Below, piece after piece: positions 5,125-39,897 of a DNA stretch of 39,897 bases. The stretch is from an uncultured Rhodospirillales bacterium (GTDB lineage Bacteria > Pseudomonadota > Alphaproteobacteria > Acetobacterales > Acetobacteraceae), in contig CAIMWH010000238.1 in the NCBI GenBank assembly GCA_903845065.1, positions 1 to 39,897 on the forward strand, given 5' to 3'. Each line of letters opens with the position of its first letter. The first letter of the stretch is position 1. Made by a program: the position numbers and the translations under genes. The notes below the pieces were generated by a model that had not been told where the DNA came from, made no database searches, and saw only the letters and a program-made list of their open reading frames with translations.

Positions 5125-5607
5125 ATGTCCGCCACTCGCACCATCCTCAAGCCCTGGCAGGGGCACAATGACGCGCTGCTCGCCGGGCAAATCCGCTCCG
5201 CCAGCGGGGCTACGAACAAGGGGCGCCGGCCGGTGATGCGGGTGCCGGGGCTGCGGCCGATCGCCGAGGTTGTCGCCGGCATCGTGGCGACGGTGCCGCC
5301 GCCCGTGGAGCCCGACATGGTGCCCGCGCCGATCACCGCCGGGGCCGCCACGCGGGCGGACCGGCTGTATGACACGCTGGTGGAGATCGCCCGCAACGGC
5401 GAGATCGTGCCGGTGACCGCCGATCTGATGGAACGGATGGGGGTTTCGGCGAACTGGTCGAACCATGTGTCGGACGTGCTGGTCACGCTGGAGCAGCAGG
5501 GCCGGATCGTCCGCACGATGCATGGCAACCGGCGGGATATCGAGATCGTGGAGATCGGGATGGTGGTGAGCAACCGCCGTGCGCCGGTTGCCGTGGTGTC
5601 GGCATGA
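5125..5607 (+). CDS. Winged-helix-like DNA-binding protein
   Basis: A 160-residue product with GGAGG 5 nt before the ATG. The first 60 residues are basic and Pro-rich. The rest (ADRLYDTLVEIARNGEIVP, LMERMGVSANWSNHVSDVLVTLEQQGRIVRT) has the helix-helix-wing layout of winged-helix proteins, with LEQQGRIVR as the recognition helix leading into the wing. It overlaps the GcrA homologue by 4 nt, so a role in early gene regulation or replication initiation is plausible. The precise family is not known to me. Confidence 0.7.
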   Translation: MSATRTILKPWQGHNDALLAGQIRSASGATNKGRRPVMRVPGLRPIAEVVAGIVATVPPPVEPDMVPAPITAGAATRADRLYDTLVEIARNGEIVPVTADLMERMGVSANWSNHVSDVLVTLEQQGRIVRTMHGNRRDIEIVEIGMVVSNRRAPVAVVSA

Positions 5608-6182
5608 GCTGGGGCGGGAGTGTCAGCGAGCAGCCCTGGACGGATGCGGCGCTGGCGACGTTGCGGGCGTTGTGGGCAGACCCGGCCAATAGCGCGAGTG
5701 CCATCGGCGAGAAGATGAACCGCTCGAAAAACGCCATCCTCGGCAAGGCGCACCGGCTCAATCTGCCGCCGCGCCAGTCCCCGATTGTCCGCACGTATGC
5801 GCAGAAGGCGCCGAAGCCGAGCATCGCGATGCGTGCAGCGGCGGCGGCCGAGGTTACGGCGGTGGTGGCCGCGCCGCCGGTGGCGAAGCCCGTGCCGGTA
5901 GTGATCGCCGCTCCGGTCAGCCTGCGGCCGCTGGTGATGCGTGAGGGCCGGGTGATCCACCTGCCGGCGATGAGCGTGCGCCAGTGCCAGTATATCGCGG
6001 GCGATGTGCGGGCCGGTGCGTGGTCGTTCTGCGGCGATGCCACCAACGGCGCCAGCAGCTACTGCGCCGAGCATGCCGCACGCTGCTTCACCAAGCCGCG
6101 CGGCCCGGTGGAGGGCTTTCCCGAGGGGTTCGAGCCCGCCGAGGGCACGCGGATGGGCGAGCGTTTCGGGCGGGGTGCGTGA
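5604..6182 (+). CDS. gcrA: GcrA-family cell-cycle regulator homologue
   Basis: A 192-residue protein with the GcrA architecture. The N-terminal helix-turn-helix (residues about 10-52) has WTDAALATLRALWAD and the KNAILGKAHRLNLP signature. A Pro/Ala-rich linker follows, and the C-terminal sigma70-binding region has Cys/His positions (VRQCQYIAG, FCGDAT, SYCAEH). GcrA is found in alphaproteobacteria and activates sigma70 promoters that carry m6A-methylated GANTC sites. A phage copy could redirect host cell-cycle genes or phage promoters according to methylation state. The same genome encodes an adenine methyltransferase at 32928-33767, although of the D12 type rather than CcrM. Confidence 0.85.
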   Translation: MSWGGSVSEQPWTDAALATLRALWADPANSASAIGEKMNRSKNAILGKAHRLNLPPRQSPIVRTYAQKAPKPSIAMRAAAAAEVTAVVAAPPVAKPVPVVIAAPVSLRPLVMREGRVIHLPAMSVRQCQYIAGDVRAGAWSFCGDATNGASSYCAEHAARCFTKPRGPVEGFPEGFEPAEGTRMGERFGRGA

Positions 6183-7078
6183 TGGAACTGCCCCCGCTCC
6201 GCATCATCATCGAACCCGGCGAGGGTTGGTTCCGGCTGGTGGACCGCATCGTCGCCGCGCTGCGCCAGGCGCCTGCCGCGGCACCGGTTGAGGCCGCGCC
6301 GGCTGGTATGGCGGACCCGGTTGCGCCGCTGCCCGCGTTCGAGGCGGCCCAAGCCGAGCGCGTTCCGCCGGACGTGCTGGCCGAGCCGGAACCCGTCATG
6401 CCCGAACCGGCTGAGGCTGAGCCCGCGCCGGTCAAGGTCAAGCGGGTGCTGTCGGAAGCGGAACTCGCGACCCGCCGTGAGGCGATCAAGAAAGCGCAGG
6501 CTGCGCGCTGGGCCAAGAATGCGCCGCCGGCCGAGCCGGTTCCCGAGCCCGCCCCCGCGCCGCTGAAACGCTGGACGCCGGAGCGGCGCGCCCTGTTCAC
6601 CGCCGAATGGGAAAAGGGCGTGCCGACCCGGGTGATCATGGACCAGCTCAACGCGATGCCGGGCGAACCCATCCACATGGGCCTTATGTCCACCCAGGCC
6701 GCGAACATGGGCCTGACCCGGCCGCCCGGTTTCGAGCCGGTGCGCATTTCCCCCAAGCCGATCGCGGCCCAGCCGGAGGAGCGCCCGGCCACGCGGGCCA
6801 TTCCCAAGGACGTCCGCACCCGCGATGGCAGCCTGTCCGTCGCCGCGCTCCAACAGCGCGACCGCGGCGCCGGTTTCGAGCCCATCACCTGGGCCGACGC
6901 CGAGGAATGGGCCCGCCGCCACGCCCCGCATCTGCTCACCGGCCGCGGTAGCACCCTGCCCGATGTGGTGGGCCTCAACGCCTACCGCCGCGACAACGGC
7001 CTGCCGCCGTGGCGGATCATCGTGGGCTTCGGCCCGCAAACCCCCATGCCGGCGACGGCGGCGGGTGCCAACCAGTGA
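6182..7078 (+). CDS. Hypothetical protein with Pro/Ala linker and possible HTH
   Basis: A 298-residue product starting at the ATG at 6182, overlapping the GcrA-type gene's stop by 1 nt. Residues about 30-130 are low-complexity Ala/Pro/Glu. The middle (LKRWTPERRALFTAEWEKGVPTRVIMDQLNAMPG, then STQAANMGL) resembles the trihelical DNA-binding region of GcrA-like proteins, which suggests a diverged relative. The C-terminal 90 residues contain ITWADAEEWARRHAPHLL and a Gly-rich end. Function is not known; DNA binding is inferred. Confidence 0.6.
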   Translation: MELPPLRIIIEPGEGWFRLVDRIVAALRQAPAAAPVEAAPAGMADPVAPLPAFEAAQAERVPPDVLAEPEPVMPEPAEAEPAPVKVKRVLSEAELATRREAIKKAQAARWAKNAPPAEPVPEPAPAPLKRWTPERRALFTAEWEKGVPTRVIMDQLNAMPGEPIHMGLMSTQAANMGLTRPPGFEPVRISPKPIAAQPEERPATRAIPKDVRTRDGSLSVAALQQRDRGAGFEPITWADAEEWARRHAPHLLTGRGSTLPDVVGLNAYRRDNGLPPWRIIVGFGPQTPMPATAAGANQ

Positions 7079-7281
7079 GCGAATGGGTCGGTCATATTCG
7101 CCGCGAGGGGGATGTCTGGGTCGGGCAACTCCAGCTCGGGGATATGGACTGGCCGCTGCTGTTGCGTGGCACGGTGGAGAAGATCGGCGATCGGACGCAG
7201 TTGCGCATCGTCGGCAAGATGGCGCCGCCGCCGAAATGGATGACGGTGCCGATCCTCGATCGGGAGGAACCGCGCCGATGA
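7075..7281 (+). CDS. Small beta-rich hypothetical protein
   Basis: A 68-residue product starting at the GTG at 7075 (GTGA overlap with the previous stop). It reads SEWVGHIRREGDVWVGQLQLG, then WPLLLRGTVEKIGDRTQLRIVGKM, a pattern of short beta strands. No family recognised. It overlaps the next gene by 4 nt and is co-translated in the early rightward operon. Confidence 0.65.
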   Translation: MSEWVGHIRREGDVWVGQLQLGDMDWPLLLRGTVEKIGDRTQLRIVGKMAPPPKWMTVPILDREEPRR

Positions 7282-7757
7282 TCCCGCCGCAGGTGATCCG
7301 GGGGCAAATACTGGCGTTGCGGTGTTTCGCACCCCTGGTTGTACGTGGCCGGATGACGCGCGATGACGCGATCGCGCAAGTGCTGCCGACCGCTCTGGAG
7401 ATCATCCGAAAGACGATGCCGGACTATTCCGAGCAAGGGATGCGTACGCAGCTCGCGTGGCATCTGACCGATTTCCAGGCCGCGCATGCCCGCGCCTATG
7501 ACCGCACCGAGAACGAAATTCGCTGGGCAATCCGCGCGATGATCCGCGGCCCCCAGGCCCCCACTGATGATGACCCGCAGGGAAGCCGTCGCCCGACCTC
7601 GGCCGAGCTGCTCGCCGCCGCAGCCGCGATAAACGGCCGCAACGGCGCGCCGTTGTCGGAGACGAAGCTGCGGTTTGGCCGCAACGAAGTGGCCGCGATC
7701 GTTGAGGAAGAAGTGCTCACGGCGCTGCGCCGCGCGAGCCGGAGGAAAGCAGCATGA
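7278..7757 (+). CDS. Hypothetical early protein
   Basis: A 159-residue product starting at the ATG at 7278, with GGGAGG 9 nt upstream and an overlap with the previous stop. It is largely helical (DAIAQVLPTALEIIRKTMP, RTQLAWHLTDFQAAHARAYDRTENEIRWAIRAMI), with an acidic-polar middle and a basic C-terminus (LTALRRASRRKAA). It directly precedes the primase/helicase-like gene with a 4-nt overlap, the place where a helicase loader or replication accessory protein is often found; that role is inference from position only. Confidence 0.6.
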   Translation: MIPPQVIRGQILALRCFAPLVVRGRMTRDDAIAQVLPTALEIIRKTMPDYSEQGMRTQLAWHLTDFQAAHARAYDRTENEIRWAIRAMIRGPQAPTDDDPQGSRRPTSAELLAAAAAINGRNGAPLSETKLRFGRNEVAAIVEEEVLTALRRASRRKAA

Positions 7758-9571
7758 GCGGCGCGCGTGTGTTTGACATTTGGGATAGTGGCGAACGGCC
7801 GAAGCGCGGCGATCTGCCGCCCCCGCCGCCATCCGGTCCGCCGGAACAGGCCGATCCCTGGCCGACATGCCCATTCACCCCACTCGGTGCCGGCGCCGGG
7901 CGCTACTGGTTCCTCGATGCGCAAGGTGCGCTCACCGACGTGCCGTCCAGCACGTTGGCGCAGTGGCCGAAGCTGCTGGAGCTGTGCGCCGGCGATCGCG
8001 CCTGGCTGGTGACGAATTTCCCGGCATTCGACAAGGAAGGGCTGCCGATCGACTGGTTCAACCTCCGCTCGGCCACCGGCGCCATCATGCGGCGCTGCGC
8101 GGAAATGCCGCCGTTTGACGCGGAAATGGCGCGCCGGCGCTACGGTCTGTGGAAGGTGGCGGACGGATATGCGCTGCACCTCGGCGACCGGATCGAATGG
8201 TGCGGCGGTGAGGAACGGGCCGGGTTCGTGCGCGAAAATGTGCTGTGGCTGCGCCTGTCGCCGCGCGGTGGCCATGCCGCCCCGGCCGATGTCAGCCTCG
8301 GCGCCGAGTTGGAGAAGCTGCTCGCCACCTGGTCATGGCGGGATAAGAAAGGCGCCGGCATCATGCTCGGCCTGATGGTGTCCGGCTGGATCGCCGGCGC
8401 ACTGCCGTGGCGGCCGCATGGCTTCGTGGTGGGCGAGGGCGGTTCGGGCAAGACGACGTTGCTGCGCGACGTGATCGGCGGGCTATGCCCCCTCACCCGG
8501 TATCTCAACGACTACACCGAGCCGGGCATCCGCCAGCTATTGAGCGAAAGTGCCACCTGCATCGTGCTCGATGAGGCCGAGGGCGACAGCGGCACCGAAA
8601 TGCGGCTGCGGCGCACCATCGAAATGCTGCGCCGCGCGTCATCCGGTTCGGGCGTGCAGTCGGTCAAAGGGTCCAGCGACCACACCGCCAAGCAGTTCAC
8701 CTTGACGGGCTCGGCGATCATGGGCGCCATCCTGCCGCCGCCGTTGGAGCCGCAGGACGCCAGCCGGTTCACCGTGCTGGAGCTTGACCGCCTGGTGCCG
8801 ACCCTATCCGAGTCGGATATCACCGCCTTCGTGGCGCGGAATGGGCCGGCGCTGTGGGGGCGGGCGATCGCGGAGATCTCGCGCATCCTGGCGCTGGTGA
8901 AAATCCTGCGCCAGCGCATCATTGATCGCGGGTTTCCTGCCCGCATCGCGGACCAGCTCGCCACCATCGCGGCGTGCCGCTGGGTGATGCTGCGGGACGC
9001 CGGCGACGATCCGCGCTCGGCCGATGTCGAGGATGGGCCGGATGAGGCGCTGGCCATCGTGGATCACCTGTTCACCACCGATGATGAACGGGTGGCCGAC
9101 AGTACCGGCAACCAGGCGCTCGGCCGGCTGCTGATGTCCGCGGTGGATATGGCCGGTGACAAGAAAACGCTGGGCCAGGTGCTCAACCGCCATCGCTGGG
9201 TCACGAAGTTCCTGATCACCAGTGCCGGCGACCGGGAGCAGGATGAGGAACGCAAGGTGCGGACGGCCGAGGGAGAGAAGCTCGATGCCCTGCTGCAAGG
9301 CCACGGCGTGCGCTGGGGGGGGTGCGAGGCGGCCCGGGCGGATGGCGCCCCCGCGCCCCCCCTGGGTTTGTTTGTCTGCGTCGCCGCCCATCCTCGGCTC
9401 GAACGGGCCTTCGCGGACACGGCATGGACCGGAAAGCGATGGGGCGCGGCATTGGCGCAGCTACCCGGCGCGCTCGGCGGCCGTGCGCTGCCACCGCAGC
9501 GAATCGGTGGGCACAAGCCGCGCGTGGTGTGGGTGCCGGCCGTGCTGTTCGAGGCGCCGGAGGATGACTGA
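7754..9571 (+). CDS. Primase/helicase-like replication ATPase (DUF927/SF3-like)
   Basis: A 605-residue protein. The N-terminal 180 residues form a domain without clear motifs. A P-loop ATPase follows, with Walker A GEGGSGKT at residues 227-234 and Walker B CIVLDEAEGD at about 269-278 (acidic pair D273-E274). Downstream motifs (SGVQSVKGSSDHT, FTLTGSAIMGAILPPPLEPQDASRF) fit the sensor and arginine-finger region of DUF927/superfamily 3 replicative helicases. It has no zinc-ribbon primase signature that I can see. It is the only obvious replication protein and is followed directly by an iteron array, so it probably binds or unwinds the origin. Confidence 0.75.
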   Translation: MSGARVFDIWDSGERPKRGDLPPPPPSGPPEQADPWPTCPFTPLGAGAGRYWFLDAQGALTDVPSSTLAQWPKLLELCAGDRAWLVTNFPAFDKEGLPIDWFNLRSATGAIMRRCAEMPPFDAEMARRRYGLWKVADGYALHLGDRIEWCGGEERAGFVRENVLWLRLSPRGGHAAPADVSLGAELEKLLATWSWRDKKGAGIMLGLMVSGWIAGALPWRPHGFVVGEGGSGKTTLLRDVIGGLCPLTRYLNDYTEPGIRQLLSESATCIVLDEAEGDSGTEMRLRRTIEMLRRASSGSGVQSVKGSSDHTAKQFTLTGSAIMGAILPPPLEPQDASRFTVLELDRLVPTLSESDITAFVARNGPALWGRAIAEISRILALVKILRQRIIDRGFPARIADQLATIAACRWVMLRDAGDDPRSADVEDGPDEALAIVDHLFTTDDERVADSTGNQALGRLLMSAVDMAGDKKTLGQVLNRHRWVTKFLITSAGDREQDEERKVRTAEGEKLDALLQGHGVRWGGCEAARADGAPAPPLGLFVCVAAHPRLERAFADTAWTGKRWGAALAQLPGALGGRALPPQRIGGHKPRVVWVPAVLFEAPEDD

Positions 9572-9578
9572 CGGGGCG

Positions 9579-9783
9579 GTGTCCCGGTGTCCCGCTATGT
9601 GTCCCGTCTAAGCCATTGACGGGAAACTGGTGGGACACATGGGACACCGGGACACCGGGGGTAGCAATATCTTCTGCACGTGATGCGTGTGTGTGGAGAA
9701 TTGCGGTGTCCCATGTGTCCCGGTGTCCCAAAGCATTTTTATCAATGGGTTAAGTGGGACACAGAGCGGGACACATGGGACAC
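9579..9783. repeat. Double mirrored iteron array, proposed replication origin
   Basis: Twelve copies of a 7-mer lie in 205 nt. Unit 1: GTGTCCC at 9579, 9587 and 9599, then GGGACAC at 9632, 9641 and 9649. Unit 2: GTGTCCC at 9706, 9715 and 9723, then GGGACAC at 9756, 9768 and 9777. In both units the third direct and first inverted copies start exactly 33 nt apart. A core, TAAGCCATTGA (9609-9619), recurs inverted as TCAATGGGTTA (9742-9752), each 3 nt from an iteron. Unit 2 is thus a diverged reverse complement of unit 1, with an AT-rich centre. Position just after the helicase gene suggests an origin. Confidence 0.75.
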
Positions 9784-10527
9784 ATCGAAATTGCCTCGCC
9801 GGTGAATGCAGATTCCTCTGGACACGGAGACGGCGGGTCGGCTTTTCTCCCGGTCACCACTCCAGCGCCCGCCGGGCACCAGGAGTGCGTAAGCCATGGC
9901 GTGGCATCCCCCCTATTCAGCAAGATCAACCGCCATGGTGGCGCTCGTGCCAACAGCGGCGGCGCGCGGCTCGGATCGGGGCCGAAGCCGAAAGCCAAGC
10001 CTGCGGCGGTTGAGCATCGGGCATCCTCGCCGCGGTGGTATTGCCTGCAAACCGAAGCGCGATATGAGCTGGCCGCGATCCATGCGTTGCTGGTCGAGGG
10101 TTTCGAGATCCACTTCCCCACCATCGTCGAGGATGACAGCCGCGTCGCCTCGCTGATGTATCCGGGCTACGGGTTCGTTCGGCTCGATCTCGATGCCGGC
10201 GGGTGGCAGGGGTTGCAGCGCGGCGATGTGTCGCGGGTGCGGCGGCTGCTGTCGGACCCGACCGGCATGCCGGTGCCAGTGCGGCGCGGTTTCGTGGAGC
10301 GGCTGATCGAAGAGGCCGGCGAGGCTGGGTTCATCGATGCGCGGGTTGGTGGTGCGTCGGACATTGAGCCGGGCACGACGGTGCGGGTGGTCGATGGTCC
10401 GTTCGCTGGGTTCGATGCGGTAGTGACTGGCACGGCGGGCAAGTGGATCAAGGTGACGACGCTGGTGTTCGGGCGTGAGGCGCCGATGACGCTGCCGCGC
10501 GGGGCGGTTGTGAAGATAAGCGCGTGA
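9775..10527 (+). CDS. NusG/RfaH-family transcription antiterminator
   Basis: The conserved part is a NusG N-terminal (NGN) domain, RWYCLQTEARYELAAIHALLVEGFEIHFP ... MYPGYGFVRLDL (split here for brevity), followed by a C-terminal KOW domain, IEPGTTVRVVDGPFAGFDAVV to LPRGAVVKI. Such proteins bind RNA polymerase and reduce pausing or termination. The N-terminus is uncertain: ATG at 9775 lies inside the iteron array, and GTG at 9802 or 9901 are alternatives; the segment NRHGGARANSGGARLGSG is a basic phage-type leader. It lies just upstream of the late morphogenesis genes, fitting a role as a late-operon antiterminator that lets polymerase pass internal hairpins such as 17152-17179. Confidence 0.8.
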   Translation: MGHIEIASPVNADSSGHGDGGSAFLPVTTPAPAGHQECVSHGVASPLFSKINRHGGARANSGGARLGSGPKPKAKPAAVEHRASSPRWYCLQTEARYELAAIHALLVEGFEIHFPTIVEDDSRVASLMYPGYGFVRLDLDAGGWQGLQRGDVSRVRRLLSDPTGMPVPVRRGFVERLIEEAGEAGFIDARVGGASDIEPGTTVRVVDGPFAGFDAVVTGTAGKWIKVTTLVFGREAPMTLPRGAVVKISA

Positions 10528-10659: not shown

Positions 10660-10689
10660 TCGGGCAGTCAGGAAGTTAGGTTACCCGTC

Positions 10690-11199
10690 ATGACGGACGT
10701 GACGCCCCCAGATGACGCTGACGTTCCGCTCACGTTCACGGATTTCGCTGTTCGGATCGGGAAGTCCCGGCCCTACGTCTCGTCTCTCGTCGCGAAGGGC
10801 GTGATCCAGGCGCCGGCGCTGACCGAGCAACGACTGATTATCCCGTCGCTCGCCGAGGCGCAGATCGCCGCCTCCGCCACCCGCCCGAAGCTCTCCACCA
10901 CCGAACCCGCCACCTCCGGCACCCTCAACGCCGAACGCCTGCGCCTGGTGCGCGAGCAGGCCGACCGGCAGACGATGGAGAACAAGGTCCGCCGCGGCGA
11001 GCTGATCGCCCGCTCCTCCCTCTCCAGCATCCTGCCGCCCCTTTCCCGCCGCTTCACCGAGCGGGTCAGCCAGCTCGTCCGCGACACCATCACCGATGAC
11101 GTCGAACGCGCCGCGCTGATCGACCTGATCGCGACCGATACCGAGACGTTCATCGCCGAGGCACTCACCCATGGAGGCGCTGCTCCCCCTGCCGGATGA
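10690..11199 (+). CDS. Terminase small subunit (Nu1-like)
   Basis: A 169-residue protein with an N-terminal winged-helix-like DNA-binding segment (FTDFAVRIGKSRPYVSSLVAKGVI), a helical middle (NAERLRLVREQADRQTMENKVRRGELI) and a C-terminal helix that would contact the large subunit. This is the layout of lambda Nu1-type small terminases, which recognise the packaging site and recruit the motor. It overlaps the large-subunit gene by 29 nt. The packaging site would be expected nearby; the 160-nt gap upstream (10528-10689) is a candidate. Confidence 0.75.
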   Translation: MTDVTPPDDADVPLTFTDFAVRIGKSRPYVSSLVAKGVIQAPALTEQRLIIPSLAEAQIAASATRPKLSTTEPATSGTLNAERLRLVREQADRQTMENKVRRGELIARSSLSSILPPLSRRFTERVSQLVRDTITDDVERAALIDLIATDTETFIAEALTHGGAAPPAG

Positions 11200-28453: not shown

Positions 28454-29304
28454 CCGATCCCCGCACCGTCACGGCCACCATTCTCGATCTACCGCCGATC
28501 GACGGCGACGAACCCAGGCACCGCCCACTGCTCGCCGTCGCGGCAGCGCGGTTCGGCGGCGCGCATGTGTGGCGCAGCGTCGGCGGCGACGGCTACCGGC
28601 TGTGGTGCTCCGTGGGCGCCGCGGCGACGATGGGACACGTCGTCACCGCCCTCGATGTCTCCGTCACCGGAGACTGGCAGGACCAGGCGTTCGAGGTCGC
28701 GCTGGACCATGGCGAGATCTACGCCGCGCCGCGCGCCGCCGTGCTCGCTGGCATCAACCTCGCCGCCATTCGCTCCGACGGCGGGGCGTGGGAGTTGCTG
28801 CGCTTCGCCGGCGCCGAGTTGATCGGCCCGTCGCGCTACCGCCTCTCGGACCTGCAGCGCGGCTGCCACGGCACCGCGCCCATCGCCGCGGCCGCCGGCG
28901 CCGATCTGGTGATCATCGATGACGCCGTGGTGCGCCTGCCCGTCCATCTGCGTGAGATTGGGACCGCCATGGAACTGCGCATCTGCCCGACCGACCGCGC
29001 CTATACCGACGCCACTGCCGCCGCGATCAGCTACACTCCGGACGGCCTGGCGCACCGCTGGCCGGAGTTGCTGGTGCAACCCGTTGCCCTCACGGTCGGG
29101 CAGAACGCCCCGCCCGCCGCCGTGGCCGACGGCCAGGTCCACATTATCGGGGACGCGCCGATCGGCGCCTGGACCGGCCGCGCTGGGCACGTCACCGGCT
29201 TCCTGTTCGGCGCCTGGCGCTTCCAAGCACCGTTCGAGGGCTACTCGGTATGGGACCTCGCATCCCATAGCCGCCGCACGTTTTCCGCCGGGGCGTGGCT
29301 GTAG
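28450..29304 (+). CDS. Tail tip protein, C-terminal hub part with DUF2793
   Basis: A 284-residue protein in an ATGA overlap. The main part (HVWRSVGGDGYRLWCSVG, LSDLQRGCHGTAPIAAAAGADL, FVVL-type strands) resembles the C-terminal half of GTA-type hub proteins. The last 50 residues (GAWTGRAGHVTGFLFGAWRFQAP, then EGYSVWD) are a DUF2793 module, which in related phages and GTA clusters sits at the hub end. Together with the preceding gene it would form a two-chain hub; the separation is by a normal stop/start overlap, not a frameshift. Confidence 0.75.
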   Translation: MTDPRTVTATILDLPPIDGDEPRHRPLLAVAAARFGGAHVWRSVGGDGYRLWCSVGAAATMGHVVTALDVSVTGDWQDQAFEVALDHGEIYAAPRAAVLAGINLAAIRSDGGAWELLRFAGAELIGPSRYRLSDLQRGCHGTAPIAAAAGADLVIIDDAVVRLPVHLREIGTAMELRICPTDRAYTDATAAAISYTPDGLAHRWPELLVQPVALTVGQNAPPAAVADGQVHIIGDAPIGAWTGRAGHVTGFLFGAWRFQAPFEGYSVWDLASHSRRTFSAGAWL

Positions 29305-32927: not shown

Positions 32928-33767
32928 GTGACACCATCGTCAATGCATCCCGTCCGCCCTACCAGCCCTGTTGCGCCCTACATGGGCGGTAAGCGCCACC
33001 TGGCCGGGCGGATCATCGATCGCCTCGCCGAGATCCCGCACACCACCTATGTCGAGCCCTTCGTCGGCATGGGCGGCGTGTTCCTGCGCCGGCCATTCCG
33101 CGCCCAGGCGGAGGTCATCAACGATATCTCCGGCGACGTGATCACCCTGTTCCGCATGCTGCAGCGTCACTACGAGGCGCTGATGGACATGCTGAAATGG
33201 CAGATCACTTCCCGCGCCGAGTTCGAGCGCCTGGTTGCGGCCGCGCCCGAGACCCTAACCGACCTGGAGCGCGCCGCCCGCTTCCTCTACCTCCAGCGTC
33301 TGGCCTATGGCGGCAAGGTCACCGGCCGCAACTTCGGCGTTTCGGCCGCCACACCAGGTCGGTTCGACGTGACCAAACTGCAGGCCCACCTCGATGAGGT
33401 GCATGATCGCCTCGCCGGCGTCGTGGTGGAGCGGTTGCCCTACGCCGAGCTGCTCGCGCGCTATGACACGCCGGCGACGCTGTTCTATCTCGATCCGCCC
33501 TACTGGCAGTGCGAAACCGACTACGGCACCGGCGTGTTCGCCCCGGCCGACTTCAGCCGCCTCGCCACGCTGCTGGCCGGGCTGAAGGGCCAGTTCCTTA
33601 TGTCGATCAACGACGCACCGCAGATCCGCGAGATCTTCGCCGCGTTCGACATCGAGGAGGTCGACACGGTCTACACGATCGGCGCGGCGACGGCCGGGCC
33701 GGCGGATGTGAAGGAGCTGCTGATCGGCCGGGTGCGAGGCCGGCGGGATCTGTTCAGTCAGGTCTGA
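32928..33767 (+). CDS. D12-class DNA adenine (N6) methyltransferase
   Basis: A 279-residue protein (GTG at 32928; ATG at 32943 is possible). It has the Dam/D12 order of motifs: YMGGKRHLAGRII at the N-terminus, the AdoMet-binding motif I VEPFVGMGGVF (F45, G47, G49), NDISGDVITLF and the catalytic motif IV DPPY at residues 189-192. It should methylate the N6 of adenine, probably at a short palindromic site such as GATC, which I cannot determine. Roles include protection from host restriction and timing of expression; a link to the GcrA homologue is discussed under findings. It is the last gene of the rightward operon. Confidence 0.92.
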   Translation: MTPSSMHPVRPTSPVAPYMGGKRHLAGRIIDRLAEIPHTTYVEPFVGMGGVFLRRPFRAQAEVINDISGDVITLFRMLQRHYEALMDMLKWQITSRAEFERLVAAAPETLTDLERAARFLYLQRLAYGGKVTGRNFGVSAATPGRFDVTKLQAHLDEVHDRLAGVVVERLPYAELLARYDTPATLFYLDPPYWQCETDYGTGVFAPADFSRLATLLAGLKGQFLMSINDAPQIREIFAAFDIEEVDTVYTIGAATAGPADVKELLIGRVRGRRDLFSQV

Positions 33768-33943: not shown

Positions 33944-34894
33944 TCACTTAGTTGCCCCGGTTGTCCCTTTTCGGGGCAACCGCCGCATTGCCCGCTTTGC
34001 GAGCGCCTCTTGGTCGACTGCCTGGGTGTATAGCTGCACCATTGAGATCGTGCGATGGCCGGTCACGGCCGCGATCTCATGCACCGTGGCGCCGGACTGG
34101 GCCAGCTCAGTCGCGCGGAATTTGCGCACTCCGTGGATGCCTAGGTTGTCAGGCAGCCCCGGGATTTTCCCGAGGGCGCGGGACAGGCGCTCGGTGAAAC
34201 GCTGTGGCACCCACGGGTCACCATCCTCGTTGGACAGGATGGTGGTCGCCGGTCGGTCCCATATGTCGAGCGCCTCGCATACGATCGGAGCGAGGGTGAT
34301 AACCATCGGCATACGGGTCTTGATCTGGACGAAGCGCAGTGCTGCACCGTCATAGTCCAGCCACCTCAATGCCAGCAGATCGCCCCGGCGCTGGCCCGTG
34401 GCGGCCGCGAGAAACACCGCATGGGCGAAGGGTTGGGGCAAGTGCTTGAGCGCCACGCGCACGTGCTGTGCGGTCCACGTCGCGAGGTGGCCCCCGGGAA
34501 GGGTGCGCACCTTATACATTGGCGAGTGATCGATCCATTCCCGGTCGACCGCCCACGTGAACATCGCGGATGCCGCGCGGACAAATCCGGTGGCGGCGCC
34601 GTGCCCGCGGGTGCTGGCGATCGCATCGCGCATGGCCAAAAGATCGCGGCGGGTGATGCGGGCAACCTCAGTGTGCGGGTCGCGTTCGAGGTCGCGGATA
34701 TAGACGCTGTAGACGGTGCGTGTGTGCTCGGCGAGGTTCACCCATTCGGGGCTGGCCTTGTAGGCTTGGATCAGCGCGCCCAAGCTCTCGGCGCCGAAGC
34801 GGCTAGCGGGCGCCTTGTGCGGCGGGTAGCGATACTCGCGCACGGTGCCGTCCGCGAGGGTCTTTCGAACCACCCTTCCCGCTTTCCTTGGCAC
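33944..34894 (-). CDS. int: Tyrosine-type site-specific integrase
   Basis: A 316-residue tyrosine recombinase, starting at the GTG at 34894 with GGGA a few nt upstream. The SAM-like core-binding domain is about residues 35-135. The catalytic domain has Arg169 (TGQRRGDLL), His254 and Arg257 (HGVR), His280 (TGH) and the nucleophile Tyr289 (QLYTQ), so all key residues are present. It integrates and excises the phage at attP/attB. It overlaps the upstream excisionase-like gene by 92 nt. The 3' end contains the inverted repeat GTTGCCCCG/CGGGGCAAC (33951-33980). Confidence 0.93.
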   Translation of the reverse strand: MPRKAGRVVRKTLADGTVREYRYPPHKAPASRFGAESLGALIQAYKASPEWVNLAEHTRTVYSVYIRDLERDPHTEVARITRRDLLAMRDAIASTRGHGAATGFVRAASAMFTWAVDREWIDHSPMYKVRTLPGGHLATWTAQHVRVALKHLPQPFAHAVFLAAATGQRRGDLLALRWLDYDGAALRFVQIKTRMPMVITLAPIVCEALDIWDRPATTILSNEDGDPWVPQRFTERLSRALGKIPGLPDNLGIHGVRKFRATELAQSGATVHEIAAVTGHRTISMVQLYTQAVDQEALAKRAMRRLPRKGTTGATK

Positions 34895-35156
34895 GTTTTT
34901 CCCTGCCTTCCCGCAGAATTTGTTCAACCGCAGATGACAACGGCCGCGCGGCGGATGCTGCGCTGCCGGACATTGCAGCGTCAAGCCCGGCGGCCGACCA
35001 GCGCGGCGAGCGCGGGCCAAGCTCGTAGGAAGCCGCCGGCAGGCCCCCCTCTTTTACCCGGCGGAGGAACGCGGCCAATCGCAGGCCGAGATGGGCGGCT
35101 GCCGACTCGGCATCGAGCCAGGGAGAGAACGGGGCAATGCGATGGCCGTCAGCCAT
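34803..35156 (-). CDS. Excisionase-like HTH protein
   Basis: A 117-residue product from the ATG at 35156, which overlaps the DUF4326 gene stop by 8 nt (ATGGCTGA). Residues about 10-60 (FSPWLDAESAAAHLGLRLAAFLRRVKEGGLPA, then PRWSAAGLDAAM) fit the small MerR-like winged helix of AlpA/excisionase proteins. The C-terminus is basic. It lies directly upstream of the integrase and overlaps it, the usual Xis position, so a role as directionality factor is likely. Confidence 0.7.
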   Translation of the reverse strand: MADGHRIAPFSPWLDAESAAAHLGLRLAAFLRRVKEGGLPAASYELGPRSPRWSAAGLDAAMSGSAASAARPLSSAVEQILREGREKRAKESGKGGSKDPRGRHRARVSLPAAQGAR

Positions 35157-37455: not shown

Positions 37456-37955
37456 GCCGGCACCCCACGCTTCGCCGCGCGATCGATGCGCTCGATCTCG
37501 GCGATGATCAGCGCGCCGGCGCGCACCAGGTCGCGGCGCGGGTCCTTCGGGTTGAACTGGCTATCGTGCCAGGGCCAGATTGCCACGAGCGGCGCGGAAA
37601 CCCAGGGTTCGAAGCAGCCGCCCGACGTGATCGAACAGCCGGCGCTGAAGGCGTAAGCGGCGGCGGCACGGCTCAACTCGCCGAGGCGGTGCTGGTCATC
37701 ATGCTCTGGCTTCCAGCCCTCGACCTCGACCTGCCGTCGACGCTCGGCGATGATCTCGGCGGCGGCGGCGTTCCCGCCGATCCCACGACGGAGGAGAAGC
37801 GCCAGCACTTCCTCGGCGTAGGCGAGCATTCCAGCCCGGTCGAACTCGCTCAGGCTCTCCCATGGCGTGTGGTGGCCGATCCGCTTGCAGCGGGCGACGT
37901 TGATGGCCTGGGCGATCTCATCGGCGGTGACGGGCGCGTGGTGCTGAAGGGCCAT
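37452..37955 (-). CDS. Conserved phage hypothetical protein
   Basis: A 167-residue product from the ATG at 37955 (1-nt overlap with the ParB-domain gene's stop). It contains a pattern that I know from many phages: IIAERRRQVEVEGWKPEHDD, GELSRAAAAYAFSAG, WPWHDSQFNPKDPRRDLVRAGALIIAEIERIDRA. The function of this family is unknown. The N-terminal 60 residues (DEIAQAINVARCKRIGHHTPWESLSEFDRAGMLAYAEE) are a separate helical domain. Confidence 0.8.
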   Translation of the reverse strand: MALQHHAPVTADEIAQAINVARCKRIGHHTPWESLSEFDRAGMLAYAEEVLALLLRRGIGGNAAAAEIIAERRRQVEVEGWKPEHDDQHRLGELSRAAAAYAFSAGCSITSGGCFEPWVSAPLVAIWPWHDSQFNPKDPRRDLVRAGALIIAEIERIDRAAKRGVPA

Positions 37956-39631
37956 CAGGCGGATTCCTCTTCGTCATGGGTTTGGGTGATGGTACGGGCG
38001 GGGGCGGGGGCGCCGAATCCGGCGCCGGGCGGCAGCCACGCTGGCAGGTGGCCGGCCAGGCGCTTGCGCAGCTCGCCGACGGTGGAGGGCGGCTGCATTC
38101 CGGCATCCTTGGCGGCGGCGCGCAGGGCGTCGCCGTTGATGGTGGCGAGGATCTCCGGCGTGTCGAAGCGGGGGAGCTTCCTGGCGGCACCGATGGCATC
38201 ACCGATCCATTCGGCGACAGGGCCGCTGCCCACCGCGTAGCTGCTGCCCAGCTTGCTCGGCAGGTCGATCGACAGCACGCGGGCGAGGGTTTCGCCGATG
38301 ATGGCAACCAGGTCGGCCTCTTCGGGCAGCGTGATGGTGCCAAGGGGGCCGATGAGGCGGCGCGTCACGTCGTTGTCGGCCCCGCTGTTGATCGATGCCG
38401 GGCGATAACCCCGGATATCGACGTTGCTGGCGTGGAAGGCGAGCAGCAGCATGGCGCAGAGATGTTGCCACGGCGGGTCGCCCTCGATCGGCGCGCGCAG
38501 GGCATCACGCAGCGCGGCCGTCTTGGCCTCGGCGATGAGGTCGCGCCCGGCCGTGGTGATGGCGGCCTTTTCGGCGGGCGGCGGCGGAGGCGGTGGCGCG
38601 GCGTGCGCAGCCTCGTCATCATCGTCGCCGGCGGCCGTGGCATCGGCGGCGCTGGCGGGCTGCGAGATCGGGGAGCAAATCACGTAGGTGATCTGGCCGG
38701 GGTTGTGCAACTCGGTGCAGATCCCGGCGAGCACCCGGCGGAAGTCGGATTTGCCGAGGGTGGGGGCATGCCATTGCGTGGCGTCCCGCTGGAAGCCGGC
38801 GGGGATTTCCAGGCGGTCATTCCCACCCGCCCATTCGGCGATGCTCCAGCGCTTGTCCTTCCGCTTCGCCACCTGCTCGGCGAGGGCGGCGCGTTGGGCG
38901 GCGAGGAAGCCGGTGACGTCATAGGTGACCCACTGGCCGGGCGAGCCGGGCTCGGCGAAGAGGTCCTCCTCGAACAGGACGCCGGCGGTTTCCCAATCGA
39001 AGATGGCGTTGCCGCGGCCGATCCACTTCACCCGGCACATCTGGCCGATCATCTCCCAATCGGCCCAGCCGGCGCGCGCCATCACGGCGTTATAGCCCGC
39101 CACCTGCGCCTCATGCGGCGCGGCGGCGATGCGGCCGATGTAGCTCTCGTGGGGCGGTTCGTAATCCTCCTGAGCCTCCTCCGCCTCCAGGGCCGCGAGC
39201 AATTCGGGGGCCAGGGCGCCGAGCTTCGCCAGCCGGCCGGCGTGGCGGATGTCCATTCCCAGCGCGGCGGCGGCGCGGTTGATGTTGAAGCCCTCGGTCT
39301 CCTGCAACGCCTTGAGCGCGCGCCATTGCTGGGTGGCCGTCATGCCGGCGCGCACCAGGTTGGTGGCGACGGTGGCGGCGATCTCATTGGCGCCCGGCAG
39401 GTTCGGCTCGATGTGCACCGGAACCTCGGCCAGCCGCAGCATCTGCGCCACCGCCAGGCGCTTGCCGCCGTCCACCACGCGGAAACGGTTGCCGTCCATC
39501 ACCACCACAAGCGGCGTCAGCACGCCCATGGACTCGATGCTGGCATAGAGCGGGTCGGCGATATCGATGCGCAGGGCGCCACGCAAGGCGAGCGTCGGCG
39601 GGTCGATCTGGTCGACGGGGATCAGGGGCAT
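37955..39631 (-). CDS. ParB/RepB-domain protein
   Basis: A 558-residue protein from the ATG at 39631. The N-terminal ParB/sulfiredoxin-type nuclease domain (residues 1-75) has PLIPVDQIDPP, SMGVLTPLVVV and the VDGGKRLAVAQ box (GGKR at 55-58). A KorB/ParB-like helix-turn-helix follows (NINRAAAALGMDIRHAGRLAKLGAL). The centre and C-terminus, with an acidic stretch and Pro/Ala linker, are specific. No ParA gene is present. In phage early operons such proteins act in DNA binding, partition or as nucleases; it might bind the iteron array or an undetected parS. It overlaps the upstream gene by 10 nt. Confidence 0.85.
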   Translation of the reverse strand: MPLIPVDQIDPPTLALRGALRIDIADPLYASIESMGVLTPLVVVMDGNRFRVVDGGKRLAVAQMLRLAEVPVHIEPNLPGANEIAATVATNLVRAGMTATQQWRALKALQETEGFNINRAAAALGMDIRHAGRLAKLGALAPELLAALEAEEAQEDYEPPHESYIGRIAAAPHEAQVAGYNAVMARAGWADWEMIGQMCRVKWIGRGNAIFDWETAGVLFEEDLFAEPGSPGQWVTYDVTGFLAAQRAALAEQVAKRKDKRWSIAEWAGGNDRLEIPAGFQRDATQWHAPTLGKSDFRRVLAGICTELHNPGQITYVICSPISQPASAADATAAGDDDDEAAHAAPPPPPPPAEKAAITTAGRDLIAEAKTAALRDALRAPIEGDPPWQHLCAMLLLAFHASNVDIRGYRPASINSGADNDVTRRLIGPLGTITLPEEADLVAIIGETLARVLSIDLPSKLGSSYAVGSGPVAEWIGDAIGAARKLPRFDTPEILATINGDALRAAAKDAGMQPPSTVGELRKRLAGHLPAWLPPGAGFGAPAPARTITQTHDEEESA

Positions 39632-39897
39632 ACGCTGCCCTCCTCGGGTTCGGGTTGCGGGCGCAGGCGGCGGGCGGCTTCGGCGGCGGCCTGGACGACG
39701 TGGAGCAGCACCACGGGGACGCCGCCGGGGCGCATCTCGACGCGGAAGATGTCGAGCTTGTGCAGGTGCTCGAGTACGGTGCCGGCGGGTTTGGGCAGCG
39801 GGCGGCCAGCGATTGGCGTGACCAGCCACCGGGCCATCAGGCGCTGATAGGCCTCGGCCGCGGTGCGCCAGGCGGCGGGGTTGAGCGTGGCGCATTC
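39622..39897 (-). CDS. Hypothetical early protein, C-terminal part (starts beyond window edge)
   Basis: This is the other end of the gene described at 1-300. In the merged circle it starts at position 300, passes through the 141-nt repeat and stops at 39622, giving 144 residues. The C-terminal part (RVEMRPGGVPVVLLHVVQAAAEAARRLR) is a strand-helix segment followed by an acidic end. Its stop overlaps the ParB-domain gene's start by 10 nt. No family recognised. Confidence 0.8.
   Translation of the reverse strand, partial: ECATLNPAAWRTAAEAYQRLMARWLVTPIAGRPLPKPAGTVLEHLHKLDIFRVEMRPGGVPVVLLHVVQAAAEAARRLRPQPEPEEGSVCP
39757..39897. repeat. Right copy of 141-nt terminal direct repeat
   Basis: Identical to 1-141. 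Merging the copies gives a 39,756-bp circle in which the leftward early operon is continuous. See the left copy for interpretation. Confidence 0.95.

Follow-up and report, generated by a model that had tools for sequence, protein, structure and literature searches.

What does a block of twelve short, mirrored repeats do when it sits immediately behind the gene for an AAA+ ATPase in the genome of a temperate phage? The block in question lies at positions 9579-9783 of a contig from an uncultured Rhodospirillales bacterium, which was analysed over its whole length of 39,897 nt (G000:C238, hereafter the window), and a preliminary description of this DNA had put it forward as a probable replication origin. 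The comparison with relatives presented here supports that proposal: across phages, prophages and plasmids the array is linked to the ATPase gene, with its layout kept and its repeat word changed. Judging from these comparisons, we consider it highly probable that 9579-9783 is the replication origin of the phage, and that it is read by the C-terminal domain of the ATPase with six sites in each half.

Genomic context and layout of the array

The contig carries an exact 141-base terminal overlap (1-141 = 39757-39897), and so closes in the assembly as a circle of about 39.8 kb. Such closure may also come from a phage genome that is itself circularised or permuted; the phage was probably present in an unintegrated, circularised or permuted form. 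The window encodes a gpA-type TerL, a lambda-type portal and a capsid protein, together with the features listed below, among which is indeed the ParB-domain protein of the preliminary description. Elsewhere in the same assembly, a short segment (G000:C237:26276-26329) matches a portion of the ATPase gene at 80%.

5604-6182: phage-encoded GcrA-like cell-cycle regulator
7754-9571, plus strand: 605-aa AAA+ ATPase, proposed initiator helicase with a Cch/SaPI-Rep-like fold (PHROG matches, AF2, Foldseek)
9362-9571, plus strand: C-terminal domain of the ATPase, residues about 537-605, proposed iteron reader (strand-helix-helix-strand in AF2)
9579-9605, plus strand: outer-left iteron triplet, GTGTCCC at 9579, 9587 and 9599
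9606-9631, no strand: left loop, GC 0.50, with core TAAGCCATTGA at 9609-9619
9632-9655, minus strand: inner-left iteron triplet, GGGACAC at 9632, 9641 and 9649
9656-9705, no strand: centre between the half-sites, in which purines and pyrimidines alternate over a run of 13 (p = 0.04 in the window)
9706-9729, plus strand: inner-right iteron triplet, GTGTCCC at 9706, 9715 and 9723
9730-9755, no strand: right loop, proposed melting site, AT-rich (GC 0.27), with core TCAATGGGTTA at 9742-9752
9756-9783, minus strand: outer-right iteron triplet, GGGACAC at 9756, 9768 and 9777
9754-10527: NusG-like antiterminator, directly after the array
32928-33767: DNA methyltransferase (phrog_56)
34010-34420, minus strand: match to a tyrosine integrase, within a long reading frame (33944-35020)
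37955-39895, minus strand: ParB-domain protein

The array begins 7 nt past the ATPase stop codon (9571) and consists of 12 exact copies of GTGTCCC/GGGACAC in the order >>><<<>>><<<, two sets of six as had been described, with start-to-start spacings of 8, 12, 33, 9 and 8 nt in the left set, 57 nt between the sets, and 9, 8, 33, 12 and 9 nt in the right set. The distance of 33 nt between the third direct and first inverted starts is thus exact in both units, and the 11-nt core that had been reported twice (TAAGCCATTGA and TCAATGGGTTA) matches at 10 of 11 bases after inversion, each copy lying 3 nt from an iteron. The claim that the two units mirror one another holds for the order of the sites, but for their spacing only to within 1 nt (8, 9, 33, 12, 8 expected; 9, 8, 33, 12, 9 found). 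The GC content is 0.56 in the centre and 0.27 in the right loop.

A thirteenth copy of GTGTCCC stands alone at 28632, which brings the whole-window count to 13, against a shuffle mean of 5.58 and a shuffle maximum of 12. Within the 5.9-Mb assembly (G000), all six pairs of GTGTCCC 0-4 nt apart fall in the 9579-9783 array, while a reversed control pattern gave none. A search of the block against Rfam returned nothing at gathering score, and blastn of the window's array against plasmids gave no match.

Arrays accompany the ATPase gene in relatives

ATPase homologues were collected from whole genomes and phage records. A single-protein search at class level found the ATPase in 10 of 385 genomes (the window's own included), and an alignment search found it in 22 of 200 genomes at family level, 37 of 346 at order level, 8 of 385 at class level and 6 of 398 at phylum level; each of these tallies includes the window's genome, the tallies differ in their E limits, and loci were taken from best matches only. 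A single-protein scan of viral contigs yielded no close ATPase relatives. Twenty-three phage records had an ATPase hit, and 14 of the 23 were read. Setting window copies aside, this gave 76 loci with the ATPase, 67 once nine duplicates had been dropped, and from these 62 representatives below 90% identity, 60 of which had enough downstream sequence.

We applied a strict array test, namely at least six copies of one 7-mer (p < 0.01) no more than 900 nt downstream of the ATPase. It was passed by 33 of the 60 downstream regions, as against one of 54 upstream regions (L260) and one of 60 random regions, and the lone random pass (L331:7896) overlaps the ATPase end and the array region of its own locus (ATPase 6452-8332). 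Two of the 33 have simple words, CCGCGCC (L293) and AAAATTT (L324), and are probably not arrays of this type. Among the 27 of 60 regions that the strict test missed, several arrays are degenerate, displaced or split (L006, L256, L115, L072), and no array was found within 900 nt downstream in L258, L261, L263, L265, L266, L269, L276, L296 and L297, among others.

The preliminary description had proposed looking for GTGTCCC arrays beside such ATPases in related phages; the layout is indeed conserved, but the word is not. A locus whose ATPase is 68% identical (L004) has the same order built from GTGTTCC, with a mismatch in one of 12 sites, and another, found by its DNA pattern alone (L033), has GTGTCCC in the same order at near-identical spacing. 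The words found among relatives include GTGTCCC, GTGTTCC, CGTTACG, TGTAACC, TGGCTAC, TGTCTCA and CTGTGAG, and most fit NGTNMC in a hand alignment. When word labels were placed on a tree of 38 ATPases, built from the ATPase core without its C-terminal domain, the 22 labels required at least 25 changes; iteron register and labels were assigned by hand.

GTGTCCC itself was rejected as a diagnostic word: two pattern scans of viral contigs gave at least 120 matches each, and an ATPase homologue is encoded in only five of the 240 pattern matches listed (L033, L072, L079, L115, L146). As an observation of its own, a recurrent GTGTCCC array whose spacing approximates 9, 55, 11, 11, 10 occurs in a group of viral contigs (L016, L019, L035, L040, L045, L047, L073 and similar ones) near a terminase-small-subunit-like gene, with no ATPase homologue in the stretch, and represents a separate use of this word.

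Spacing, loops and core

Across the relatives, spacing is mostly 8-9 bp within inner triplets and mostly 8-13 bp within outer ones, with exceptions such as the 20-21 bp of L307. A second layout, in which the outer-left set is flipped, is common (for example L277, L295, L298 and L305). Counting sites with one mismatch allowed in 31 arrays, six was the commonest number per half (16 of 31 on the left and 16 of 31 on the right; median 6, range 4-8). The window scores 7 + 7 in this mismatch-tolerant count, which includes near-matches, and 6 + 6 in exact copies.

Right-loop lengths from 27 loci cluster at 31-33, 41-46, 52-57 and 64 (Rayleigh R 0.74 at a period of 11, p = 3e-8). This p value is optimistic, given the relatedness of the sequences and the manual entry of the lengths, in which near-matches within the loop were skipped for L010, L301 and L322. 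The lengths thus step by about one helical turn, as expected if the sites stay on one face of the helix. For the centre, periodicity is weak at most (p 0.035-0.18), and right-loop phasing without clear centre phasing fits two rigid six-site halves that need no phasing relative to each other.

The right loop is also low in GC. In all 27 loci its GC content is below that of the last 2 kb up to the ATPase stop codon (mean 0.29 versus 0.65), although the right loops of L004 (0.52) and L322 (0.50) are not AT-rich; the drop is smaller for the left loop (mean 0.45, below the gene in 27 of 27) and for the centre (mean 0.53, below in 25 of 27). With the window excluded, 26 loci remain, and a core within two mismatches of TAACCCATTGA occurs in 12 of their right loops and 5 of their left loops, where shuffles gave means of 0.3 and 0.1.

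Two further features did not carry over from the window. An alternating purine-pyrimidine centre, tried as a general feature, reached p < 0.05 in only 9 of 27 loci. GC skew had been suggested as a check on the origin; in the window the skew changes sign near the array and its cumulative maximum falls at 10680, 0.9 kb past the array, but this is not general. Of 31 loci, 21 have a higher skew on the left than on the right and only 4 show a sign flip, and because the relatives are inconsistent we dropped skew as origin evidence.

The ATPase as a candidate initiator

The 605-aa ATPase matches the phage families phrog_21086 (E 7e-84) and phrog_35358, a DNA primase family (E 9e-26). Its AF2 model has a mean pLDDT of 86.8, and the best Foldseek match in the PDB is SCCmec Cch (5dgk, E 1.1e-8), a likeness at the level of the fold only, after which come NrS-1, ASFV PrimPol, D5 and the SaPI5 primase-helicase 7ola (E 1.5e-6). 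The earlier label of a DUF927-like ATPase is weak, with a match (E 0.001) for just one family member out of 12. As for the P4-primase C-terminal domain (TIGR01613), NCBIfam gave no match for the window ATPase, and a Phaeobacter homologue scored 20.4 against a cut-off of 108.7. The 310-aa protein encoded upstream was considered as a relative of the MinM1 CHC2 primase and rejected for want of any similarity.

On our own reading of the model, the C-terminal domain appears winged-helix-like; taken in isolation it matched no known fold in a Foldseek search of the PDB (nothing below E 1.8). On the small contig of one homologous ATPase (L009), a second reading frame (L319, G080:C105:7105-7536) encodes a close relative of that protein's C-terminal domain.

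Taken together, these observations suggest a working model for the locus. The AAA+ helicase encoded just upstream would be the initiator, and its small C-terminal domain would read the 7-bp iterons. Because each half offers six sites in two facing triplets, two hexamers could assemble, one on each half, and strand opening would then start at the AT-rich right loop with its conserved core, the putative melting site.

Small plasmids that keep the ATPase and the array

The ATPase is present in 14 plasmid records (7 Arsenophonus, 4 Phaeobacter, 1 Leisingera, 1 Atlantibacter and 1 Azospirillum), nine of which were read: six from Arsenophonus, one from Phaeobacter, and those of Leisingera and Atlantibacter. 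The Phaeobacter and Leisingera plasmids are phage-plasmids of about 40 kb that also have annotated repA and parB genes. In the 7-mer test the Phaeobacter plasmid gave four copies (p 0.01, borderline), the Leisingera plasmid p 0.57, and the Atlantibacter plasmid six copies, which is significant.

In each of the six Arsenophonus plasmids the ATPase gene is followed by an array, organised as 4+2|2+4 in five of them, some with extra copies or near-matches, and with six sites in the outer-right set of paPv13. Three of these plasmids (paNv_CH14, CAN18 and UK14) combine the same ATPase and array in records of 8.2-8.3 kb with five annotated genes, encoding a small protein, the ATPase, an HTH regulator, an Rpn nuclease and a protelomerase; in these gene tables, which are stated to be incomplete, the ATPase is the only initiator-like gene annotated, and the 4+2|2+4 array starts some 60 nt behind it. 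A listing of paNv_CH14 reading frames from 75 aa upwards contains, apart from the annotated genes, none longer than 104 aa. A protelomerase is annotated in five of the six small Arsenophonus plasmids with the ATPase (L358, L362-L366). Pairs of co-resident plasmids differ in their words, TACAACC and TTGTAAT in strain aNv_CAN, TTGTTAG and TGTTACC in strain aPv.

Does the protein change with the word?

Two pairs of plasmids bear on this point. The ATPases of paNv_CAN17 and paPv13, whose words differ, are 97% identical in the core and 63% identical in the C-terminal domain, and residues 451-532, which precede that domain, have diverged as well (75%). At the DNA level the identity of this pair is 0.94-1.00 at +200 to +1299, falls from about +1300 to 0.52-0.84 across the gene end and the array, and is again 0.82-0.96 at +2200 to +2599. 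Between paNv_CH14 and paPv15, the whole gene and the array have diverged, with flanks alike on both sides. Both patterns fit a joint exchange of initiator and array, although fast local divergence may also have produced them; some plasmids show what an exchange of C-terminal domain plus array is expected to leave behind.

Across pairs whose cores share an identity of 0.45 or more, the mean drop in identity from the core to the C-terminal domain is -0.006 for pairs with the same word (n = 10) and 0.120 for pairs with different words (n = 105; p = 8e-6, for pairs that are not independent and with a same-word group of 10 pairs). The window and L004 run counter to this trend, in that their words differ and yet the C-terminal domain is closer than the core (0.76 versus 0.70). 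An all-pairs Mantel test of iteron distance against the C-terminal domain gave no significant correlation (r 0.07, p 0.13; partial r 0.06, p 0.18), and a mutual-information scan of alignment columns did not single the domain out (9% of scores above 3, against 7%).

Alternative explanations

Arrays of this kind might serve functions other than replication. One would be packaging, with the array as a pac/cos site bound by the terminase small subunit, for which the gene at 10690-11199, about 0.9 kb downstream, is the candidate. That gene is weakly Nu1-like (E 0.004, below the curated cut-off) and is followed by that of the gpA-type TerL, TerL lies 1.2-2.7 kb downstream of the array in many relatives, and in some marine viral contigs, on our own reading, a GTGTCCC array comes just before a terminase-small-subunit-like gene. 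We nevertheless hold a terminase site to be unlikely, because the scaffold persists with two TerL families (PF05876 and PF03354) and in the 8.2-kb Arsenophonus plasmids, which have no terminase gene annotated; moreover, the terminase small subunit gene of three other Arsenophonus plasmids (L362, L364 and L365) is far from the array, which in most relatives lies near the ATPase stop codon and not near the terminase. The preliminary description had named a partition or silencing site as the main alternative, and a ParB-like protein that might act there is encoded at 37955-39895, on a contig whose closure makes plasmid-like maintenance possible. This gene is about 28 kb from the array, however, or about 9.4 kb round the closed circle, and since the smallest Arsenophonus plasmids, with five annotated genes, keep the array with no ParB gene annotated, we have come to disfavour partition strongly.

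The array might instead act as RNA, as a put-like element or terminator hairpin for the NusG-like antiterminator, whose gene comes next. The block does fold, at -126 kcal/mol (z -9.1), and each of the 15 arrays that were folded is more stable than its own shuffles (z -2.7 to -17.9), a necessary consequence of inverted repeats. A NusG-like gene is nevertheless present in only 4 of 41 loci with the ATPase (the window, L033, L256, which is MinM1, and L339; 42 loci were examined, in stretches of unequal length), the pairing of the outer quarters is absent in five of eight flipped relatives (L277, L282, L299, L305 and L306; L274, L278 and L279 keep 13, 22 and 5 pairs), and right-loop lengths step by about one helical turn, all of which makes a role as RNA very improbable. 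Initiators often repress their own genes, and the array, lying between two co-oriented genes, could accordingly be a set of operators through which the ATPase operon is autoregulated, the true origin being elsewhere; its position downstream of the ATPase gene and the lack of any promoter-like site at 9400-9950 (in a scan for the sigma-70 consensus only) leave this reading with little probability.

Discussion

We thus favour a replication origin read by the upstream ATPase. Its conserved layout and differing words suggest that the scaffold of the origin is maintained while its recognition code can be exchanged, and since the C-terminal domain is encoded right beside the array, one short DNA segment could carry a whole new code. 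Beyond this locus, it seems to us rather probable that a widespread class of phage and plasmid origins has a fixed 2x6 scaffold whose word has changed repeatedly through a compact cassette, the C-terminal region of the initiator plus the adjacent array, that was either exchanged or diverged. If this is true, it would sort co-resident elements into compatibility groups, a natural code by which replication distinguishes self from non-self, and offer a possible reason why related elements can share one cell. With the scaffold fixed and the word changed at least 25 times in 38 sequences, these loci form a natural data set for the co-change of a DNA-binding domain and its site, and six sites per half make the two-hexamer loading model directly testable. 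No printed description of a mirrored 2x6 scaffold was found in our search of the literature, which covered mostly openly accessible journals.

Comparison with known systems

The alpha protein of phage P4 is a helicase and initiator that works with short iterons and needs two separate iteron regions, ori and crr. The preliminary description had likened the locus to this arrangement, and the helicase/initiator with short iterons is a genuine likeness. The window, however, has one array only, its further GTGTCCC being a lone copy and the pairs in the assembly falling only in the array. Since there is no second GTGTCCC array and no match to the P4-primase family, the helicase-plus-downstream-iteron origins of PICI/SaPI and SCCmec elements are nearer.

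Helicases of the SCCmec Cch/SaPI Rep type are reported to bind, through their C-terminus, iterons that lie immediately 3' of the helicase gene (PMC7581432). PICI/SaPI elements are described as having an initiator gene followed at once by an origin with two iteron sets, with iteron sequences given for each element and an AT-rich region proposed as the melting site, an arrangement stated to be unique to PICIs among known bacterial replicons (PMC6092414, in the portions consulted). Shared with these elements are the predicted Rep/Cch-type AAA+ helicase fold, from Foldseek and at fold level only, and iterons in two sets directly 3' of the initiator gene. Relative to the PICI/SaPI arrangement as described in those portions, the window is a full phage that encodes capsid, portal and terminase, not a satellite, and its relatives include small plasmids; each iteron set is divided into two triplets that face each other; and the AT-rich stretch is located within the right set and not between the sets (mean GC over 27 loci 0.53 in the centre and 0.29 in the right loop). 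Because the satellite lifestyle and the central AT-rich region are lacking, we file the locus as a variant of the PICI/SCCmec kind and not as a PICI origin. With SCCmec Cch it shares the AAA+ fold (Foldseek), and in the SCCmec system the C-terminal domain binds repeats just downstream of the helicase gene, as we propose for the ATPase; the Cch2 origin has three 5-nt repeats, and the accessible part of that report describes no mirrored 2x6 scaffold (PMC7581432).

The RepA/ori system of the Vibrio cholerae PLE likewise combines initiator-iteron specificity with natural variation and exchange of replication modules, and differs in having three iterons of about 30 bp, with no mirrored 2x6 scaffold in the excerpts at hand (PMC8263062). 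There, attack by the phage nuclease Odn may select for changed replication modules (PMC8263062, same excerpts), and by analogy nuclease attack is a possible driver of word change here. Our comparison would place an origin related to that of the PICIs, though of a different build, in complete temperate phages and in plasmids of 8 kb.
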